64,000 nt of DNA, taken from the NCBI GenBank assembly GCA_902765395.1, contig CACWZP010000013.1:1-64000 (forward strand), written 5' to 3'. The position numbers and the translations under genes were made by a program. Positions within the stretch are counted from its first letter, which is position 1, and each line of letters opens with the position of its first letter. The DNA is from an uncultured Eubacteriales bacterium. GTDB taxonomy: Bacteria; Bacillota; Clostridia; Christensenellales; Aristaeellaceae. The notes below the pieces were generated by a model. It did not search any database and was not told the origin of the DNA. It was given only the letters and a program-made list of their open reading frames with translations. Shown one piece after another: positions 21,885 through 29,655 of the stretch.

Positions 21885-23279
21885 TCAGTCGGCCGGTTCG
21901 CTCTGCTCGCGGGTGATGGCCGCCTTCTTCCGCCAGGCGCCGCCGCGATAGCGCAAAAACCCTGCGGCGGCCACCAGCGTCCATGTGAAGGCCGTGCCCA
22001 GCCAGATGCCCCAGACGCCGATGGACGGGATCATCGTCAGCGGCTTGGGGAAGGCCACCCGGCCCACCATCTCGCAGGCGCCGGAGATCAGCGAAAACGC
22101 GCTGTCGCCTGAGCCGTTCAGCACGCCGCGGCACGCGTAGATCATGCCCAGCGGAGCCAGGAACCACGTGGTCAGCCGCAGGCCGTGGGCGCCGTAGCGA
22201 ATGACCTCCGCGCCCTGCTCGGCGTCCACGAACAGGCCCATCACCCAGGGGCTGAACAGCTGGAAGGCCAGCGTCATCGCCGCCGCGAACGCCAGGATCA
22301 GCAGCACCGCGTGGCGGAAGCCCTCCCCCACCCGTTCGCTCTTGTTCGCGCCGATGTTCTGCCCCGTGAAGGTGGACAGCGCCGCGAACATGGACATGAA
22401 GGGCTGCTGCACCAGCGCCTCCACGCGGCTGGTGGCCGTGAAGGCCGCGCCCACCACCGAGCCGAAGCTGTTCACCACCGATTGCAGGGCGATCAGCGAC
22501 AGCGCCACCATGGAGGACTGGGCCGCCAGGGGCACGCCGATGCGGAAGCACTGGCGGATCAGCGTCGCGTTCGGCTTCCACATGGACCGATCCAGTATAA
22601 ACATGGGGTTGTGGCGGGAGGCGTACATGAAGCAGCCCACGGCGGACAGCGCCTGGGCGATGATGGTTGCGCCCGCCGCGCCGCCCACGCCCCAGCCCAG
22701 GCTGCGGATGAAGAACAGGTCGAGGAACACGTTGAGGATGCTGGCGGCCACCAGGAAGAACAGCGGCGTGCGGGAATCGCCCACGCCCCGCAGTATCGAG
22801 GAGACACAGTTGTACATGGACACGGCGATCACGCCCGCGCAGCGCACCTGCATATAGATCACGGCCTGGTCCATGATGTTCTCCGGCGTGCCGATCAGCC
22901 CAAGCACCGTCCGCGCCAGGCCAAAGCCCAGTCCGCCCATCACCAGCGCGGCGGAGGCCATGATGTACACGGCGTTGGTGATCACCCGCTTGACCGTGTC
23001 GGGCCGCTCCGCGCCGAAGGCCTGGGCGATCAGTATGCCCACGCCGCTGGCCAGGCCGCTGCACAGCGAAAAGAACAGGAAGCTCAGCGAGTTCGTCGCG
23101 CCCACCGCCGCCAGGGCGTCCGGGCCGATGTACCGGCCGACGATCATCATGTCCACCATGCTGTAGACCTGCTGGAAGATGTTGCCCACCAGCAGCGGCA
23201 CCATGAACCGCAGCAGCAGCCCCGTGGGGTTGCCCTGGGTCATGTCCATCATGTGGTGCGTCCGTTTGCGCGTTTGCAT
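21885..23279 (-). CDS. MATE family efflux transporter
   Basis: This 464-residue, 12-helix protein belongs to the MATE exporters, which expel drugs or cationic metabolites in exchange for Na+ or H+. The N-terminus reads MDMTQGNPTGLLLRFMVPLL and VDMMIVGRYIGPDALAAVGA, typical of DinF/NorM-like members in Clostridia. The homologous second half begins around IRQCFRIGVPLAAQSSMV. I chose the ATG at 23279 (AGGGAAG upstream). A longer frame to 23504 adds an unlikely Arg/Pro-rich extension. It stands alone; two other MATE genes are in the window. Confidence 0.92.
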   Translation of the reverse strand: MQTRKRTHHMMDMTQGNPTGLLLRFMVPLLVGNIFQQVYSMVDMMIVGRYIGPDALAAVGATNSLSFLFFSLCSGLASGVGILIAQAFGAERPDTVKRVITNAVYIMASAALVMGGLGFGLARTVLGLIGTPENIMDQAVIYMQVRCAGVIAVSMYNCVSSILRGVGDSRTPLFFLVAASILNVFLDLFFIRSLGWGVGGAAGATIIAQALSAVGCFMYASRHNPMFILDRSMWKPNATLIRQCFRIGVPLAAQSSMVALSLIALQSVVNSFGSVVGAAFTATSRVEALVQQPFMSMFAALSTFTGQNIGANKSERVGEGFRHAVLLILAFAAAMTLAFQLFSPWVMGLFVDAEQGAEVIRYGAHGLRLTTWFLAPLGMIYACRGVLNGSGDSAFSLISGACEMVGRVAFPKPLTMIPSIGVWGIWLGTAFTWTLVAAAGFLRYRGGAWRKKAAITREQSEPAD

Positions 23280-23507
23280 GCTCTCTTCCCTCTTGAAGAC
23301 ATTTTGTCGCGTGCCGGCATAGGCGCAGATCCGCGCTCCGCAGGCGCCGGGGCCCTGCCGGGCCGGCCCGAAAGCCGGAGGAGGCACCCGTCCGCGCGTT
23401 ATTATACAATCGGAAACAGCCACGGTCAATAGCCTTGTATTGTAATATTCTGGTTCACTGTTGAAACGGCGGGACGCCTTTTTGCCGGGGCGCTGGCAAA
23501 ACAAACC

Positions 23508-23531
23508 GGCCCCCGCCAGGCGGCGGGGGCC
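23508..23531 (-). terminator. Rho-independent terminator of the permease-GGDEF-EAL gene
   Basis: GGCCCCCGCC (23508-23517) pairs with GGCGGGGGCC (23522-23531). On the minus strand the stem is followed by GGTTTGTTTTG. It lies about 60 bases after the stop codon at 23591. Confidence 0.8.
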
Positions 23532-23590
23532 GTTCCATACTCGGGCCGGGGTTCAGCGCGTTCTGCGGCCCCAATTCCGGGTCGGCGGCG

Positions 23591-26500
23591 TCAGCGCGCC
23601 TCCTGCCGGAGCATCTCCAGGATGAACCGGTCGAAGTCCTCCGGAGGCACCGGCTTGGAGAAGTAGTAGCCCTGCACCAGGTCGCAGCCCATCTCCTTCA
23701 GCGCCAGGTATTGCTCCTCGGTCTCCACGCCCTCGGCCACCACGGGCACCTTCAGGTAGTCCGCGATCTCGATGATCAGCTCGATCATGCGCAGATCCTG
23801 CTTCTCCTTGAAGGCATTGCGCACGAAGCTCATGTCCAGCTTCAGCACGTCGATGGGCAGGTGGGACAGCATGCCCAGCGAGGAGTAGCCCGTGCCGAAG
23901 TCGTCCATCTCGATCCTGAAGCCCATGCCCACGCCGCTGAGCTCCCTGGCCATCGCAATGACCTGCTCCGAATCCCCGGTATAGGCGGATTCGGTGATCT
24001 CCAGCATCATGTCGTCGAAGGTCAGGTCGTAGGTGCGCAGGATGTCGTTGAAGATGTCCTTCAGGTTCGTCGCCAGCATGTCGATCCTGGAAACGTTCAC
24101 CGAGACCGGCACGGAATAGCCGAAGCGATCCTTCCAATCCCGGATGCGCGCGCCCGTCTCCCGCCAGACATACTCGTCCAGCTCCAGGATCAGGCCGTTG
24201 TCCTCCAGCAGCGGGATGAACACGCCGGGGCTGATCATGCCCAGCTCGGGATGGTTCCAGCGCACCAGCGCCTCGGCGCTGGCCAGCACGGGCTCATCGC
24301 CGCGCACGTCAAACTTCGGCTGGAGATACACCTTGAAATGCCTGTCCTTCAGCGATGCCCGGAAATCCTCCAGCAGCCGCTCCTTGAACAGCTCCTCCTG
24401 GTGCATCTGCGTGTCGTAAATGCCGATGGGCCTGGTGTGCCCGGTCTTGACCTTGTTCGACGCGATCCTGGCGTATTCGAACCGGCGCTCGATTTCAAGC
24501 GACTTGTCCACCTGGGCATATACGCCCATGCGCAGCCGCACGCGGTTCGCCGAGCCCTCTTCGCTGGTCAGCCCATCCGAAACCCACTCCAGCAGATGGT
24601 CGTAATCGTCCCTGTGGGGGCTGTAAATCAGGAAGGTGTCCGCGCCGCGGCGGCAGCCGACGCCGCCGATGTCGCGGGCCAGGTGGCGGATGCGTTCGCC
24701 GATGCGGCACAGGACCGCGTCGCCGTACTGCTTGCCATAGCGCTCGTTGAGCATGTGGAAGCGGTTCACGTCCATGACGATGGCGTCCATCGGCATTTCC
24801 GTGTAATGCTGGTCGTACATCCTGACATAGCGCAGGAAGTAGTCCAGGTTGAACAGGTTGGTCAGGCCGTCGCGCTCCGTCGACTGGATGATGCTTCGCT
24901 TTTCAGAAAGCTCGATGCAGCGGTTGACGCGCGCCCGCACGATCTCCCAGGAGGGATAGGGCTTGGGGATGAAATCCATGGCGCCGAATTTCAGGCATTC
25001 CACCTCGGCGGACTGGTCCGCCGTGAGCACGATGACGGGGATGTCCTTGAACTCCGTGCCTTCCTTCATCACCTTCAGGACCTCCATGCCGCTCATACGG
25101 GGCATGTTCAGATCCAGCATCACCAGCGCCAGCTCGGACTTGTGGGCCTTGATCTGCTCCAGGGCCTCGATGCCGTCGGAGGCATACAGCAGATCGTAGC
25201 CGTCCTGCAGCATGTTCCCCAGCATCATCAGGTTGACCGCTTCGTCCTCCACGATCAGCACGTGCTTCTTGATGTGCAGGATCTTCGCGTCCTCCAGCAT
25301 GGGCATCAGCATCTTGGCAGGGTTGTCGCTGTCGTCGCGGGTGACCGCGCCCAGGCCCTTCAGCAGCTGCTTTTCCTCGTACATCAGGCCGTCCGCGCGC
25401 TCAAACACGCTGTGGAAGCTCTTGTCCTCGCCGGGCACGAAGTCGGACAGGCCGCCGGAGACCACCACGCCGCTGGTGCTGATGTGCTCCACCGAGCGGT
25501 CGTGCAGCGCCAGCAGCAGCTCCTTGCGGATCACGTGGTCGCGGCCGGTCAGTATGACGACATACTCGTCGCCGCCGATGCGATAGACCGGGCTGTGCTG
25601 GAATATGTCGCAGATCATCTCAAACGCCTTGCGGATGTATTCGTCGCCGGCCTTGTGGCCCAGGGTATCGTTGATCTTCTTCAGGCCGTTCACGTCGCAG
25701 ACCACTACGGCGAAATCCTTGGCCGTACCCGCCTCGATGGCCGCGTCGATCTCCTTTTCATGCATCAGGTAGGCGTGCTTGCTCTTGGCGCCGGTCAGGG
25801 GATCCTTGAACGCGGTTTCCCGCGCGGCGTCGCGCTCGGCCACCGCCTTGGTCTCCCACTTCTGCATGGACACGTGGTTGATGAGCATCGCGCCCAGTGC
25901 CATCACGAACAGGCCGGACACCAGCAGCGAATTCAGGGTGTCGGTTCGCTGGACATGGTCGATCTGCGCCTGGACGAACGCGTCCTCGTCCGCCGCGGCG
26001 CCCTCCCTGTAGTAGTCCTGGACGGCATGGATGGCGTCGTGGGTGGTCTTTTCATCCACACGCCCCGACCAGATCATGGCCATGAAAACCACCAGCGCCA
26101 GCAGGGCGATCCAGACGATGATCGCCTTGCCGAAGCGGCGGGCGTGATCCTTCCTGATGATGTGGCGGAAGTAGAACAGGCCGATCACCGTCCACACCAT
26201 GAACAGGATATACGTCTCCGTCTCCAGCATCGCGTCGCCGAACAGTAGGGGAAAGAGCAGATAGATGCCGAACACCACCATCACAATCGAGCCGATCAGG
26301 CCGGTGACGCCCACCCGCCTGTTCTTCAGCTTTCGGGCGGTCTTCAGCGCGGCCGCGGAGACGAACCCGTACAGCATGGTGGCGCCCAGGGTGGTCACGT
26401 CCACGATCCAGCCGATGGCGGTCCTGCCGACGAACACAATGGGCACGCTGGCCGCCGCCACGAGGAGCATCGCGTTGGCGGGGATGCGCTTGTCGTTCAG

Positions 26501-27538
26501 CTCGGCAAAGCAGCTTGGGAGAATGTCGTCCCGGGCGGCCGCGAAGAACAGCCGACTCAGCGCCCGGAGGTTGCCGATCAGGCTGGTGAGCACCAGGGCC
26601 AGCAGGGAGAGCATCAGAAGCGCCACGCCGAAGTCGCCCAGGTAGTGCCGGGCGGCATAGAAGGCCGGCAGGCCCTCGATGCCGGAATAGCTGCCCAGGT
26701 TGCGGATGTAGTCCAGCCAGCTCGCGCAGCCTTCGGGATAGGCCGTGATGCTCAGCAGCGTGACGAATATGTACAGCGCGGTGGAGGTCAGCACCGAGAG
26801 CACGAGCACCCGGTGAAGCCGATCCCGCTTGAACTTGAATTCCTCGGCCGAGTGGGTGATGCTCTCGAAGCCGATGAACGCCCACGGGGAGATGAGGGCG
26901 ATGCGAAACGTCTGCGACAGGGCCGTGCCGTCCGGCACAAACGCCGGGGCAAGGCTGCCCCGGTTGCCGACGATCGATACGCCGAAGCACAGCGTGATGC
27001 CGACGACGAACACCGCCACCAGGACCACCATGGCGTGGGCGGCGATGGCCTTGCTCCGGATGCACAAGCCCGTGATGGCGGCGATGGTCGCCAGGGTCAG
27101 CAGGGCCTCACCCAGGTAGACGTCATATCCAAACAGGGTAAACAGATGCCCGAATTTGAACGTGTCACCTATGAAATAGCGGCAGAACAGCGGCAGGCTG
27201 GTCGCGTTCGCCCAGAACATGGAGATATAGGTCAGGCTTAGGAACCAGAAGACCAGGAAGGCGCGGTCGTATCCGAACACCTCCTTGGTGTAGGCATAGA
27301 TGCCGCCGGCGCGCGGGTACCGGCTGGCCATATAGGAGAAGTTCCGGCAGATGACCAGCATGAGCACCATGCCGATCAGCAGGCCGAGGACGCTTCCCGC
27401 CGGGCCGGCCTGGGCCAGGTAGGTGTTGCTCGTGACGACCAGCGATCCCCAGCCCACGCTGGTGCCGACGGCCAGCGCCCACGCTGCCGCCTGGGAAAGA
27501 TAGGGCTGTAAGCCGGTCTGTGTCTTCTGTTCTGACAT
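23591..27538 (-). CDS. Amino-acid permease fused to GGDEF, receiver, degenerate GGDEF and EAL domains
   Basis: This single 1315-residue chain joins a transporter to a complete cyclic-di-GMP control unit. Residues 1-490 are an APC-family permease (GTSVGWGSLV, YPRAGGIYAYTKEVFGYD, WAFIGFES). An external loop (about 493-535) and one more helix (536-556) follow. GGDEF-1 (570-735) has GGDEY at 655-659. The receiver (758-875) has phospho-acceptor Asp 809 and Lys 859. GGDEF-2 (885-1045) has RGADT at 964-968, so it is probably inactive. The EAL domain (1055-1310) keeps EAL (1089-1091), DDFGTGYSS and AEGVETEEQ, so it looks active. It probably senses or moves an amino acid or amine and adjusts cyclic-di-GMP. 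GGAGG precedes the ATG. Confidence 0.93.
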   Translation of the reverse strand: MSEQKTQTGLQPYLSQAAAWALAVGTSVGWGSLVVTSNTYLAQAGPAGSVLGLLIGMVLMLVICRNFSYMASRYPRAGGIYAYTKEVFGYDRAFLVFWFLSLTYISMFWANATSLPLFCRYFIGDTFKFGHLFTLFGYDVYLGEALLTLATIAAITGLCIRSKAIAAHAMVVLVAVFVVGITLCFGVSIVGNRGSLAPAFVPDGTALSQTFRIALISPWAFIGFESITHSAEEFKFKRDRLHRVLVLSVLTSTALYIFVTLLSITAYPEGCASWLDYIRNLGSYSGIEGLPAFYAARHYLGDFGVALLMLSLLALVLTSLIGNLRALSRLFFAAARDDILPSCFAELNDKRIPANAMLLVAAASVPIVFVGRTAIGWIVDVTTLGATMLYGFVSAAALKTARKLKNRRVGVTGLIGSIVMVVFGIYLLFPLLFGDAMLETETYILFMVWTVIGLFYFRHIIRKDHARRFGKAIIVWIALLALVVFMAMIWSGRVDEKTTHDAIHAVQDYYREGAAADEDAFVQAQIDHVQRTDTLNSLLVSGLFVMALGAMLINHVSMQKWETKAVAERDAARETAFKDPLTGAKSKHAYLMHEKEIDAAIEAGTAKDFAVVVCDVNGLKKINDTLGHKAGDEYIRKAFEMICDIFQHSPVYRIGGDEYVVILTGRDHVIRKELLLALHDRSVEHISTSGVVVSGGLSDFVPGEDKSFHSVFERADGLMYEEKQLLKGLGAVTRDDSDNPAKMLMPMLEDAKILHIKKHVLIVEDEAVNLMMLGNMLQDGYDLLYASDGIEALEQIKAHKSELALVMLDLNMPRMSGMEVLKVMKEGTEFKDIPVIVLTADQSAEVECLKFGAMDFIPKPYPSWEIVRARVNRCIELSEKRSIIQSTERDGLTNLFNLDYFLRYVRMYDQHYTEMPMDAIVMDVNRFHMLNERYGKQYGDAVLCRIGERIRHLARDIGGVGCRRGADTFLIYSPHRDDYDHLLEWVSDGLTSEEGSANRVRLRMGVYAQVDKSLEIERRFEYARIASNKVKTGHTRPIGIYDTQMHQEELFKERLLEDFRASLKDRHFKVYLQPKFDVRGDEPVLASAEALVRWNHPELGMISPGVFIPLLEDNGLILELDEYVWRETGARIRDWKDRFGYSVPVSVNVSRIDMLATNLKDIFNDILRTYDLTFDDMMLEITESAYTGDSEQVIAMARELSGVGMGFRIEMDDFGTGYSSLGMLSHLPIDVLKLDMSFVRNAFKEKQDLRMIELIIEIADYLKVPVVAEGVETEEQYLALKEMGCDLVQGYYFSKPVPPEDFDRFILEMLRQEAR

Positions 27539-27585
27539 AGATACCCCTCCGCATCAAGCCGACGCTTTATGGTCTACTTATTTTA

Positions 27586-27615
27586 ATTATAACATAACTG
27601 CAGTACGTTTGTCCA
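27586..27615 (-). promoter_or_regulatory. Promoter of the permease-GGDEF-EAL gene
   Basis: A perfect TATAAT (27586-27591) lies 18 bases from TGGACA (27610-27615) on the minus strand, in an AT-rich stretch, 48 bases before the start codon. Confidence 0.65.
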
Positions 27616-27875
27616 TAATAACACGGCAATATGAAAGCCAACCACCGCGGGCGGGCCTCATGGCGGCCCCGGCAGCGATCGCAAGTCGGAGCGCCCGTCG
27701 TCCGACAGCGTTTGAATGGCCAGCGCCGCCTCGGGATCCATCTCGATTGGTGGGCCGTCCGGCGCCTTTCCCATATCGTTGCCCGCGCAAAGCGGCAACA
27801 AAAAAACCGAAAACGCTCTTCGCCGTTTCACGCAGATTGCCGTTTGCAATGCCAGTCTCTCCCCCGCCAACGGGC
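27616..27875. other. Intergenic region without recognised features
   Basis: About 260 bases lie between the promoter of the fusion gene and the terminator of the GLUG-repeat gene. A hairpin near 27779-27799 is followed by A residues on one strand and preceded by T residues on the other, so it fits a terminator in neither direction. I see no gene here. Confidence 0.3.
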
Positions 27876-27911
27876 AAAAAAACGGGAGCCTGCGGCTTCA
27901 CAGGCTCCCGT
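27876..27911 (-). terminator. Rho-independent terminator of the GLUG-repeat gene
   Basis: ACGGGAGCCTG (27882-27892) pairs perfectly with CAGGCTCCCGT (27901-27911). The minus-strand transcript then has a run of six or seven U residues (27876-27882). Confidence 0.9.
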
Positions 27912-27924
27912 CCCGCTGAAACGA

Positions 27925-29655
27925 TCAGGCGGCGGGCTGTTCGGCAGCCATGTCCGCCAGGTTCTCGTCGCAGAACAGGCCGATGACGTCCTCGGTCATT
28001 GCCTCGTCCGCGTCCACCGGGAAGCCCGCGGCCAGCCAGTAGGCGTAGGGGCCCTCGGCGTACTGGGTCAGGGCGTCCACGTCGCTGCCGTAGCGGAACT
28101 CCAGGTGATAGGTGGTCGCCGGGGTATCGGGCATCATGAAGAAGTACTTGAACTCGCCCGCGTCCTCGTCGGCGGTTTCGTACAGCCAGCCGTTCATCAT
28201 GCCGCCCAGGGACAGGGGGCTGACGTAGGCGTATTCATGGCTGAACACTTCCTCGCCCGCCAGCGTACCGCTGATGGTCGCGCCGTCGAAGGTGATCTGG
28301 TCCACGCCACCCACAAACAGGCAGTCGAACTGCGGGTTGACGGAGCCGTCGCCGAAGGCGTCGATCGCCTCCTGTCCGTAGATGGTGCCGTTGCAGGCAT
28401 CCTTCAGCAGCTGCGCCACGTCCGGGGCCATCTCGTCGCCCACCACGGCGGCGCAGTGGTCCAGCCAGATCTGGTCGTAAGCGGGATCGGTGATGATCGG
28501 GAACAGGGCCACATAGGTGCCCTTCACGTCCTCAAGCAGCTGCGCGGCCGCAGCAGCGTCGGCCTCGGCGGAAGCGTCTTCGGCGGGCGCATCAGCCTCA
28601 GCAGCAGCGTCGTCCGCCTCGGCGGCCTCCGCGCCGTCGTTCTCCGCCACGCAGTCCACCAGTTCAAACTGGGTCGGCTGGTCGAAGGGCGCGCCGTTGG
28701 CCTGGGCAACCGCTTCGTTGTAGAAGCCCGCGCCGACGATGTCGCCGATGCCCTCGGCATTCGCGCCGGCGTTGACGGTCACGCCCTTCGCCGCGCAGTT
28801 GGTGAACACGGTCACGGGCATGCCGAACTGCTCATCCGCATAGCCGCCGGCGTAGCCGGTGACGCCGCCGATCCAGAAGCAGTCGTCGCCCGCGGTGATG
28901 GTCACGTTTTCAGCGGTGCAGTCTGTGAACTGCTCCGCCGCGAAGCCACAGCCGGACACGCCGCCCAGGCCGTAGCAGTTGTTGCCCGCGGTGACGGTGC
29001 CTGTGGCGGTGCAGCCCACCACGCTGGTCATCTCCAGGCCGCCGCCCACGATGCCCGCATTGGCGGTGCCGTCGGGCAGCACGATGTCCGCCTGGGCGGT
29101 GCAGTTCTCGATCATGGAGCCCATGCCCGCGCCGACGATGCCGCCGTACATGCCCTCGGCGCTCATCTCGCCCGCATGGGCGGTGACCGTGCCGTTCACC
29201 AGCGTCACGCCGGAGACGGTGGAGCAGTAGGCGTAGCCTACCACGTCGGCGGACATCATCTGGGCGTCCACAGTGGCGTTTTCCAGGGTGAAGTTGCCCA
29301 CCTGGGCGTTGGCGATGCAGCCAAACAGGCCCTGCGCCCAGCCCTCGGGCTGGTTGATGACCAGGTTGGAGATGGTGTGGCCCTGGCCGTCAAAGGTGCC
29401 TGTGAAGGCGGTCTGGGCGGCGGGGATCTCCTGCTCCTCGGTGCTCTCGCCGGAGGGAGCGTAGGCGCCGATGGGCGTCCACTCCGCACCGGCCAGGTCG
29501 ATGTCGGCGGTCAGCACATAGCTGCCGGACAGGTTGTCGTTGATCGCGGCCAGCTCCTCCACGGTGCCGATCTCGATGACGTCGCCGGACTCCGCCAGCG
29601 CCATCGCGCCCAACATCATCACCAGCATCAGCAGCAAACAGGACAGTTTCTTCAT
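27925..29655 (-). CDS. Secreted GLUG-repeat protein with possible ZinT-like C-terminal domain
   Basis: This 576-residue secreted protein starts with a signal peptide (MKKLSCLLLMLVMMLGAMALA). Residues 25 to about 330 are a repetitive beta-helix of GLUG-like units (FTGTFDGQGHTISNLVI, GLFGCIANAQVGNFTLEN, GGIVGAGMGSMIENC). An Ala/Asp/Glu-rich linker follows. The last 200 residues contain KYFFMMPDTPATTYHLEF and a GPYAYWLAAGF segment that remind me of ZinT/YodA metal-binding domains; this is inference and weak. The gene has a strong promoter overlapped by a long palindrome, so it is probably repressible. No partner genes adjoin it. Confidence 0.75.
   Translation of the reverse strand: MKKLSCLLLMLVMMLGAMALAESGDVIEIGTVEELAAINDNLSGSYVLTADIDLAGAEWTPIGAYAPSGESTEEQEIPAAQTAFTGTFDGQGHTISNLVINQPEGWAQGLFGCIANAQVGNFTLENATVDAQMMSADVVGYAYCSTVSGVTLVNGTVTAHAGEMSAEGMYGGIVGAGMGSMIENCTAQADIVLPDGTANAGIVGGGLEMTSVVGCTATGTVTAGNNCYGLGGVSGCGFAAEQFTDCTAENVTITAGDDCFWIGGVTGYAGGYADEQFGMPVTVFTNCAAKGVTVNAGANAEGIGDIVGAGFYNEAVAQANGAPFDQPTQFELVDCVAENDGAEAAEADDAAAEADAPAEDASAEADAAAAAQLLEDVKGTYVALFPIITDPAYDQIWLDHCAAVVGDEMAPDVAQLLKDACNGTIYGQEAIDAFGDGSVNPQFDCLFVGGVDQITFDGATISGTLAGEEVFSHEYAYVSPLSLGGMMNGWLYETADEDAGEFKYFFMMPDTPATTYHLEFRYGSDVDALTQYAEGPYAYWLAAGFPVDADEAMTEDVIGLFCDENLADMAAEQPAA

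Follow-up and report, generated by a model that had tools for sequence, protein, structure and literature searches.

Can an amino-acid permease and the enzymes that make and break cyclic-di-GMP (c-di-GMP) be parts of a single protein, and what would the permease do there? The question is raised by a gene on the minus strand of the window, by which we mean the whole stretch of 64,000 nucleotides analysed, from an uncultured Eubacteriales bacterium. As the preliminary description had claimed, its 1315 residues are encoded in a single unbroken frame. According to Pfam and motifs, the domain order is APC permease, GGDEF, receiver, degenerate GGDEF and EAL.

Organization of the gene

The following elements can be distinguished, all on the minus strand:

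27586..27615, minus: promoter-like TGGACA-18-TATAAT, 5' of the gene
27546..27550, minus: Shine-Dalgarno-like GGAGG, 7 nt 5' of the ATG
23591..27538, minus: whole gene, 1315 residues, ATG at 27538, stop at 23591
26150..27538, minus: APC permease core, residues 1-463, read as 12 transmembrane helices (Pfam, model, Foldseek)
26054..26125, minus: TM13, about residues 472-495 (model and hydropathy)
25934..26053, minus: external helical loop of 40 residues, 496-535 (model)
25808..25933, minus: TM14 and its cytoplasmic continuation as one helix, residues 536-577 (model)
25367..25807, minus: first GGDEF, intact (GGDEY), residues 578-724 (profile and motif)
25262..25366, minus: fusion junction or linker, residues 725-759
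24938..25261, minus: receiver, residues 760-867, phospho-acceptor D809 (Pfam and motif)
24443..24874, minus: second GGDEF, degenerate (RGADT at residues 964-968)
23651..24370, minus: EAL, residues 1057-1296, catalytic motifs intact (Pfam and motifs)
23507..23532, minus: terminator-like hairpin of 11 pairs, 3' of the gene

A promoter and a terminator had been described as bracketing the whole. Elements resembling both are present, but the promoter-like matches are not significant by count (2 observed against 1.0 +- 1.0 in shuffles); terminator-like matches number 7, against 3.1 +- 1.9.

Reality and origin of the fusion

Other genomes carry the same architecture: among 300 family genomes, 34 have, at 36 places counted by eye, a frame of at least 1300 residues whose alignment extends beyond residue 730. 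In 32 distinct fronts the sequence continues as far as the EAL domain, and at the DNA level the gene aligns over nearly its full length with other MAGs. These three observations refute an assembly join. The suspicion that assembly or annotation had united separate genes could be nourished by the position of the gene in the window genome, which differs from that in the relatives, and by three relatives (L044, L045 and L074) in which the halves are separate, adjacent genes; against the evidence for continuity, such an artefact is exceedingly improbable. Separate genes in related genomes, which the preliminary description had held to speak against a fusion, do therefore occur, but the fusion stands. 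Because the C-terminal halves of the fused genes group in the tree as a single clade with strong support (41 rows, 100/100), the split form is likely the ancestral one, with no sign of a bad join, and the fused chain would most simply have arisen once, from adjacent genes.

The bearers are gut Clostridia by their relatives' labels, and most are uncultured. Carriage by plasmids was considered and rejected: when 72,556 plasmid records were searched by tblastn with residues 1-735, four records matched, each solely in the GGDEF and its preceding helix. In phages, one permease-like match (28.5%) was found, in an unannotated Staphylococcus phage record. No fusion of an APC permease with GGDEF/EAL appears among the literature matches listed, which is weak evidence from a search with subscription papers mostly outside its scope, and protein databases may well already list such architectures.

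The permease front and the membrane hairpin

Residues 14-429 match AA_permease_2 with 118.9 bits, over the gathering cut-off of 27; AA_permease is also matched, and Foldseek aligns the core with y+LAT1, AdiC and GkApcT. Its count of 12 transmembrane helices is our reading of the model and the family. Beyond the core, the structure model predicts helices at 440-463, 472-512 and 518-577, with hydropathy peaks at 472-490 and 535-553. The external loop of the preliminary description is thus retained, whereas its one extra helix has to be replaced by two, TM13 and TM14. The loop (496-536) has a net charge of -6 and the segment before TM13 (458-472) one of +5. TM14 seems to occupy the membrane from about residue 536 to 557, and in the model helix 518-577 runs unbroken from the membrane into the first GGDEF (mean pLDDT 85). 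By eye, the fused fronts repeatedly show two hydrophobic stretches flanking a loop in the segment that joins core to output.

The glycine-rich substrate path of the unwound TM1 and TM6, characteristic of an APC permease, is present. All 96 fused rows have G29, W30, G31, W219 and E225, and G223 is found in 78 of 78. Ligand-lining and gating positions, taken from the available text on GkApcT (PMC5803215), are more conserved than random columns, as only 5 of 20000 random column sets scored as low. The lack of substrate-path residues, which had been named as an argument against an APC domain, is therefore not observed. In GkApcT, changing the TM5 lysine K191 to alanine or arginine abolishes transport while binding is kept (PMC5803215, available part). 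Its counterpart here is A175, at a variable, non-lysine position, and that of the proton-linked TM3 acid E115 is T103. A loss of transport was not accepted as a reading of these replacements, since neither the lysine nor the acid is among the common residues of the 17 free-standing relatives.

One front, several outputs

The same APC front carries HisKA-HATPase-REC(-REC), GGDEF alone, PAS-GGDEF, or GGDEF-receiver-degenerate GGDEF-EAL. Among 96 fused rows, 35 have the last of these outputs, 29 a histidine kinase, 10 a histidine kinase after a long linker and 20 a GGDEF; the remaining 2 have a long PAS-bearing linker and a GGDEF. Together with 3 interrupted rows and 5 that are output-less, cut or degenerate, they form one branch (SH-aLRT 100), which in a quick tree stands apart from 17 free-standing permeases, at a division that the tree program flagged for long branches. 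The GGDEF-receiver-GGDEF-EAL output needs 7 changes on the APC tree, 6 of them forced by starred branches, so that the front and back halves do not have one simple shared history. The fused gene is not unique: its output is one of several that this shared APC front carries. As sister genes put the front on sensor kinases, its probable role is that of a nutrient receptor.

Signalling domains and companion genes

The domain search proposed earlier returned AA_permease_2, GGDEF, Response_reg and EAL in one chain, and it confirmed, with the motifs, an intact first GGDEF, a receiver with its phospho-acceptor, a degenerate GGDEF and an intact EAL. Pfam finds GGDEF in two stretches (116.6 bits). The first has the motifs of a diguanylate cyclase, GGDEY at 655-659 and DVNGLKKIND with the metal-site Asp; no RxxD inhibitory site stands at its usual place, where the sequence reads FQHS. 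After a linker with pLDDT under 50 at residues 733-756, the receiver (73.5 bits) has its acidic EDE at 764-766, D809, T839 and K859. The profile match of the second GGDEF (60.5 bits) is genuine, although the motif is missing. In the EAL domain (195.2 bits, EAL motif at E1089), none of the catalytic positions (EAL, N, E, DD, K, E, Q) is missing, and relatives whose sequence extends to them keep them too, the last two being covered in 14 of 35. Of 35 members, some of them read only partially, all have the first GGDEF motif and the receiver Asp intact, and none the second GGDEF motif; EAL is intact in all 32 whose sequence reaches it. The conservation of both c-di-GMP activities, as predicted by motif, is supported.

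Directly upstream of the fused gene, six relatives' loci carry a cluster of REC-GGDEF-EAL (a receiver-phosphodiesterase), HPt and APC-HK-REC-REC, also described as hybrid kinase, receiver-phosphodiesterase, HPt and APC-kinase. The unknown kinase formerly suggested to adjust the receiver thus has candidates, the kinases and HPt of this cluster being putative phosphate donors. In the window's own genome, however, the HPt is confirmed by Pfam but the fused gene is not adjacent to the cluster, and a neighbour scan of 11 distinct loci found no kinase or HPt neighbour for L041 and L075, the latter with little DNA downstream. A search of the genome for a PilZ effector gave nothing at E <= 0.001, with 3 candidates scored.

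Proposed working

We lean towards regarding the fused protein as a transceptor that receives two inputs and gives two opposed outputs. From outside, the APC core would bind an amino acid or a similar small amine, and, to judge from the anatomy, the conformational change would pass through the TM13-loop-TM14 hairpin and helix 518-577 to the first GGDEF, altering its dimerization and hence c-di-GMP synthesis. Behind the flexible linker, receiver, degenerate GGDEF and EAL would form a second module, in which breakdown is governed by phosphorylation of D809, the phosphate most likely coming from the companion phosphorelay (hybrid kinase, HPt, APC-kinase), as gene order in relatives suggests. Pocket occupancy would then set the cyclase and phosphorylation the phosphodiesterase. 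The recurrence of the front on kinases, GGDEF, PAS-GGDEF and cyclase-receiver-phosphodiesterase, the conserved pocket, the retention of cyclase, receiver and EAL motifs while the second GGDEF has lost its own, the single clade of fused C-terminal halves, the upstream cluster of six loci and the unbroken modelled helix all argue for the transceptor. Against it stand the distance from the cluster in the own genome, the two loci without such neighbours, the seven output changes, the long-branch warning and the missing PilZ effector. Moreover, in CbrA, the best-studied analogue, the kinase did not respond to histidine although the protein transports it (PMC7096432, available part), so that the signal does not have to enter through the permease of such a fusion.

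A receptor that binds only, having lost transport like Ks-Amt5 (PMC5764959, available part), is a sub-case of the transceptor with overlapping probability, and we hold it possible at somewhat less than even chances; the replacements at A175 and T103 fit it, but the lysine and the acid are not common in free-standing relatives either, so that their absence is no mark of the fused form. That the protein is a working transporter whose uptake is controlled by c-di-GMP turnover or phosphorylation, and not the reverse, is unlikely. The pocket is kept and CbrA both transports and signals (PMC7096432, available part); nevertheless, kinases and single cyclases on the same front are outputs, and two conserved sets of enzymatic motifs exceed the need of a passive regulator. 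It is also improbable that the APC domain is a mere anchor or locator and the receiver alone controls, as might be imagined from the intact receiver and from the CbrA kinase, which functions without its SLC5 domain (PMC7096432, available part): the pocket columns are conserved beyond random, and the hydrophobic stretches and loop recur.

More tentatively, one APC receptor may have been multiplied within genomes, on kinases, cyclases and cyclase-receiver-phosphodiesterases, as a lineage-wide amino-acid transceptor system with an encoded phosphorelay. If so, one nutrient receptor would set the c-di-GMP-degrading arm of another, and occupancy and phosphorylation would be weighed in a single chain.

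Comparison with known systems

The closest structures of the C-terminal half are the tandem GGDEF-EAL proteins PA0575 (RmcA), MorA and DosP, which have other sensors, while in the fused protein the GGDEF-EAL pair is preceded by a receiver and by another GGDEF, separate and intact. The response regulator RocR likewise has a receiver beside an EAL, but no cyclase and no transporter. GkApcT and AdiC share the fold and substrate-path motifs of the APC core; they are free-standing, and the TM3 acid and TM5 lysine of GkApcT are absent here.

The kind of protein is already known from CbrA, Ks-Amt5 and the 5TMR receptors, of which this is a variant with an APC fold. CbrA of Pseudomonas (SLC5-STAC-PAS-histidine kinase) transports histidine (PMC13022988, PMC7096432, available parts). 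Like the fused protein, it is a single chain in which a LeuT-type transporter domain precedes the signalling domains; SLC5, STAC linker and kinase take the places of APC, TM13-14 hairpin and cyclase/phosphodiesterase. Neither SLC5 (SSF) nor STAC is among the five Pfam families matched here at E <= 0.01, and the protein is not of the CbrA type. Ks-Amt5 also uses a transporter fold as receptor on a signalling enzyme, but the fold is a trimeric Amt, the ligand ammonium and the output a kinase, and transport is lost (PMC5764959, available part). In 5TMR receptors, a transporter-related membrane domain is fused modularly to GGDEF and EAL or to kinases; it is, however, a five-helix fold like the S-component of ECF transporters and not an APC permease, and the available part of PMC11109136 names no make-and-break chain of the same order. 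The permease-type fusions in these sources thus carry histidine kinases, and c-di-GMP domains are known on the 5TMR fold, whereas here a full amino-acid-permease fold bears predicted c-di-GMP synthesis and breakdown domains in one chain. With its swapped outputs and separate precursor genes, this family makes the idea of a portable permease-pocket receptor testable.

Domain organization

The gene is a single uninterrupted reading frame of 1315 residues (27538 to 23591, minus strand), as the preliminary description had it; Pfam recovers AA_permease_2, two GGDEF stretches, a receiver and an EAL domain, and the motifs named earlier are correct on re-reading. The single extra helix proposed after the APC core has to be replaced by two membrane helices, according to the structure model (mean pLDDT 85, 25 sequences in the alignment) and to hydropathy and charge. 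A cytoplasmic turn of charge +5 precedes this pair, and the external loop between its helices carries a net charge of -6. With the N-terminus inside and the GGDEF domain in the cytoplasm, an even number of helices would indeed be required. In the model, helix 518-577 runs unbroken through the membrane into the first GGDEF; such a continuous helix is the usual route by which a sensor sets cyclase dimers. Among the best 25 of 129 NCBIfam matches only the general GGDEF domain model exceeds its curated cut-off, so no named family fits the protein among the matches listed.

Judged by motif, both cyclase and phosphodiesterase are retained in the fused chain. All 35 aligned members have an intact first GGDEF motif (GGDEF in 34, GGDEY only in the window protein) and keep the phospho-acceptor; the EAL motif is kept in the 32 that reach that point, and the second GGDEF is degenerate throughout (35 of 35). 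At what we take to be the usual position of the inhibitory site, RxxD occurs in none of the 35, which all have HSPV. The window's own genome contains 24 GGDEF and 9 EAL stretches; a search of it for a PilZ effector gave no match.

Occurrence among relatives

The same architecture occurs in at least 36 places, in at least 34 of 300 genomes of the bacterial family (the window's counted) and at least five genera, as counted by eye from a table of alignments reaching residue 730 or beyond in frames of at least 1300 residues, frame length being a proxy for the remainder of the chain. With full-size frames in at least 34 genomes, an assembly join across the parts, against which the preliminary description had cautioned, is ruled out. 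Internal stops are present in two of the 36 places (genomes G013 and G005). Domains were read in 35 distinct fronts with this output, 32 of them through to the EAL and three ended by the locus edge. Residues 1-735 are matched at E <= 1e-100 in at least 66 of the 300 genomes and at least 11 of 50 genera, the family counts being lower bounds as at most three candidates were scored per genome; residues 1-570 have a match in 31 of 60 relatives. A search of genome contigs added 21 loci, mostly MAGs labelled Clostridiales, Ruminococcaceae, Lachnospiraceae and similar, at least four of which (L034-L037) duplicate contigs of genomes already included. Labels of Coriobacteriales/Coriobacteriaceae (loci L041, L043) and Erysipelotrichaceae (L045) may be wrong.

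Outside the bacterial family, the APC-front family grows sparse. At E <= 1e-60, it was matched in 9 of 396 genomes at the order level and in 11 of 398 at the phylum level, the window's counted in each, and several phylum-level matches are free-standing permeases of about 480 residues. Two outside loci that were read, L095 and L094, have kinase-like parts, the phospho-acceptor box of L094 being atypical. A permease-like match (28.5%) also lies in an unannotated Staphylococcus phage record (OR844998.1, 77894-79243), perhaps host DNA.

Modular outputs

Outputs behind 121 distinct complete APC fronts, drawn from 155 loci
GGDEF-REC-GGDEF*-EAL (asterisk, degenerate): 35
Kinase: 29
Kinase behind a linker of >300 residues: 10
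GGDEF alone: 20
GGDEF behind a linker of >300 residues: 2
No recognised output: 25

Pfam on 15 chosen representatives identified HisKA, HATPase_c, one or two receivers, and GGDEF; PAS_4 was found within the long linkers of loci L079 and L025 and not in those of L082 or L081. In a quick maximum-likelihood APC tree, 96 fused fronts lie within one branch of 104 rows (the others being three interrupted and five other rows), apart from 17 free-standing permeases with an SH-aLRT of 100; the program's long-branch warning fell on exactly this split, and the row of L095 is itself long. The seven output labels ('other' and 'broken' included) require 15 changes on the tree versus 71.5 in shuffles.

Some members depart from these plans. 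The APC-kinase frame of L081 (3580-9399) is open for about 540 residues ahead of the APC domain. L091 (3100-4809; from contig C17 of the window's own genome), L060 and L067 are APC fronts with extra hydrophobic stretches and no recognised output domain; a divergent GGDEF-EAL gene adjoins that of L091. Members of about 1450 residues carry an extra C-terminal piece of about 130 residues after the EAL, absent from the window protein and conserved by eye (SDFESIFYVD...IRPGGTDFF); in L032, the sole such member scanned, Pfam matched nothing in it.

Members with the C-terminal piece
L032, residues about 1313-1456
L033, 5995-10335
L058, 4500-8924
Others

Origin by fusion

Separate genes in relatives, which the preliminary description regarded as evidence against the fusion, do exist at three of the 20 GGDEF-only loci (L044, L045, L074), a count limited by the little flanking DNA at many of the others. 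Here, the APC-GGDEF frame closes shortly beyond the first GGDEF, for instance at ...MGAITRD followed by a stop codon; next on the same strand comes a REC-GGDEF-EAL gene of its own, Pfam-confirmed in L045. They do not point to a bad join, however. When 60 C-terminal halves, some entered twice from two loci, were placed in a careful tree, 39 fused rows and two with an interrupted APC half formed one clade (100/100), and the three split partners and a separate gene of L062 fell just outside it on weaker branches. Most simply, a single fusion event would account for this clade, a receptor-cyclase and a receiver-phosphodiesterase that were once neighbours having been joined into one chain. The junction, residues 733-756, has the lowest confidence of the second structure model. 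A less simple history is indicated by the APC tree, on which the GGDEF-REC-GGDEF*-EAL output costs seven changes, six of them forced by starred branches, because GGDEF-only fronts nest among the fused ones; the back half may have been lost again in these, or fronts may have been exchanged.

History of the window's gene

In G018, the nearest genome compared, the window's neighbours, encoding a MatE (95%) and a GLUG protein (96%), stand together; between them is a gene whose sequence reads as AraC-type, and no APC gene. Conversely, contig C22 of the window's own genome is collinear with the G018 cluster and 93-94% identical to it, yet skips the 4.1-kb gene.

Reciprocal empty sites and neighbour
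Window 23261-27925
L156, 3005-4192
L162 (own genome, C22), 1952-1980
Window 27925-29655, GLUG-motif protein, 576 residues predicted, signal-like start by eye, 85-96% identical in four relatives

The neighbouring DNA is 93-96% identical at both sites, whereas the gene itself is 79% identical to the G018 copy; its best match among the loci compared is 80.6%. By these comparisons, the window gene is evidently not the vertical equivalent of the G018 copy. The empty sites and the 79% identity indicate that it was either acquired by transfer or goes back to an old duplication followed by reciprocal loss; a strain-mixed assembly is a less likely source of its position.

Candidate kinases

The kinase for the receiver, left unnamed in the preliminary description, now has candidates among the neighbours in relatives, though not everywhere. 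The neighbour scan covered 23 chosen loci, 11 distinct ones having a gene with this output. In six of the 11 (L033; L034/L087; L035/L089; L037/L088; L038; L040; L033 and L038 being nearly identical), REC-GGDEF-EAL, HPt and APC-HK-REC-REC genes lie immediately upstream of this gene, preceded by a hybrid kinase in L087 and L089, the loci with enough flank. L042, L058 and L061 have different kinase or HPt neighbours, while no kinase or HPt was found among the neighbours scanned at L041 and L075. In the window's own genome the cluster is present, split over two contig ends: C21 holds the kinase, receiver-phosphodiesterase, HPt (Pfam-confirmed) and the front half of the APC-kinase, and C22 a kinase half, 94% identical to its L035 counterpart. 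From the order in G018 we infer that C21 and C22 adjoin.

The permease pocket

Pocket columns were defined by alignment to the free-standing transporter GkApcT and by contacts named in PMC5803215, giving eleven ligand and gate positions, the TM5 lysine excluded. The substrate-path residues, on which the preliminary description had made its reading depend, are retained and more conserved than random columns: over 96 fused rows their mean entropy is 0.69 versus 1.56, a value so low in 5 of 20000 random column sets, with the same outcome against membrane columns only. Fused and free-standing forms differ at residues 225 (E in 96/96 versus D in 16/17), 323 (N in 70/96 versus F in 17/17) and 27 (S in 56/96, A in 32, versus I in 12/17). 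This suggests a different ligand, the differences not being independent evidence because they are shared by descent. Neither group commonly has GkApcT's TM5 lysine or its TM3 acid, so these two positions give no information on transport by the fused form; a loss of transport inferred from their absence was dropped, as free-standing relatives commonly lack both too.

Relation to known systems

The APC-fronted chain more probably than not works as a receptor, and it may also transport. Transporter-receptor fusions as a kind are already known. In the full-text literature, most subscription papers being outside coverage, no APC permease with a make-and-break c-di-GMP output was found, and its joining to both synthesis and breakdown is apparently new; the newness is narrowed by the S-component-like 5TMR receptors, to which GGDEF and EAL domains are already attached (PMC11109136). 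For the receptor reading, the precedents cut both ways: Ks-Amt5 is reported to couple binding to its own kinase and to have lost transport (PMC5764959), while CbrA is reported to transport histidine but to have a kinase unaffected by histidine (PMC7096432).
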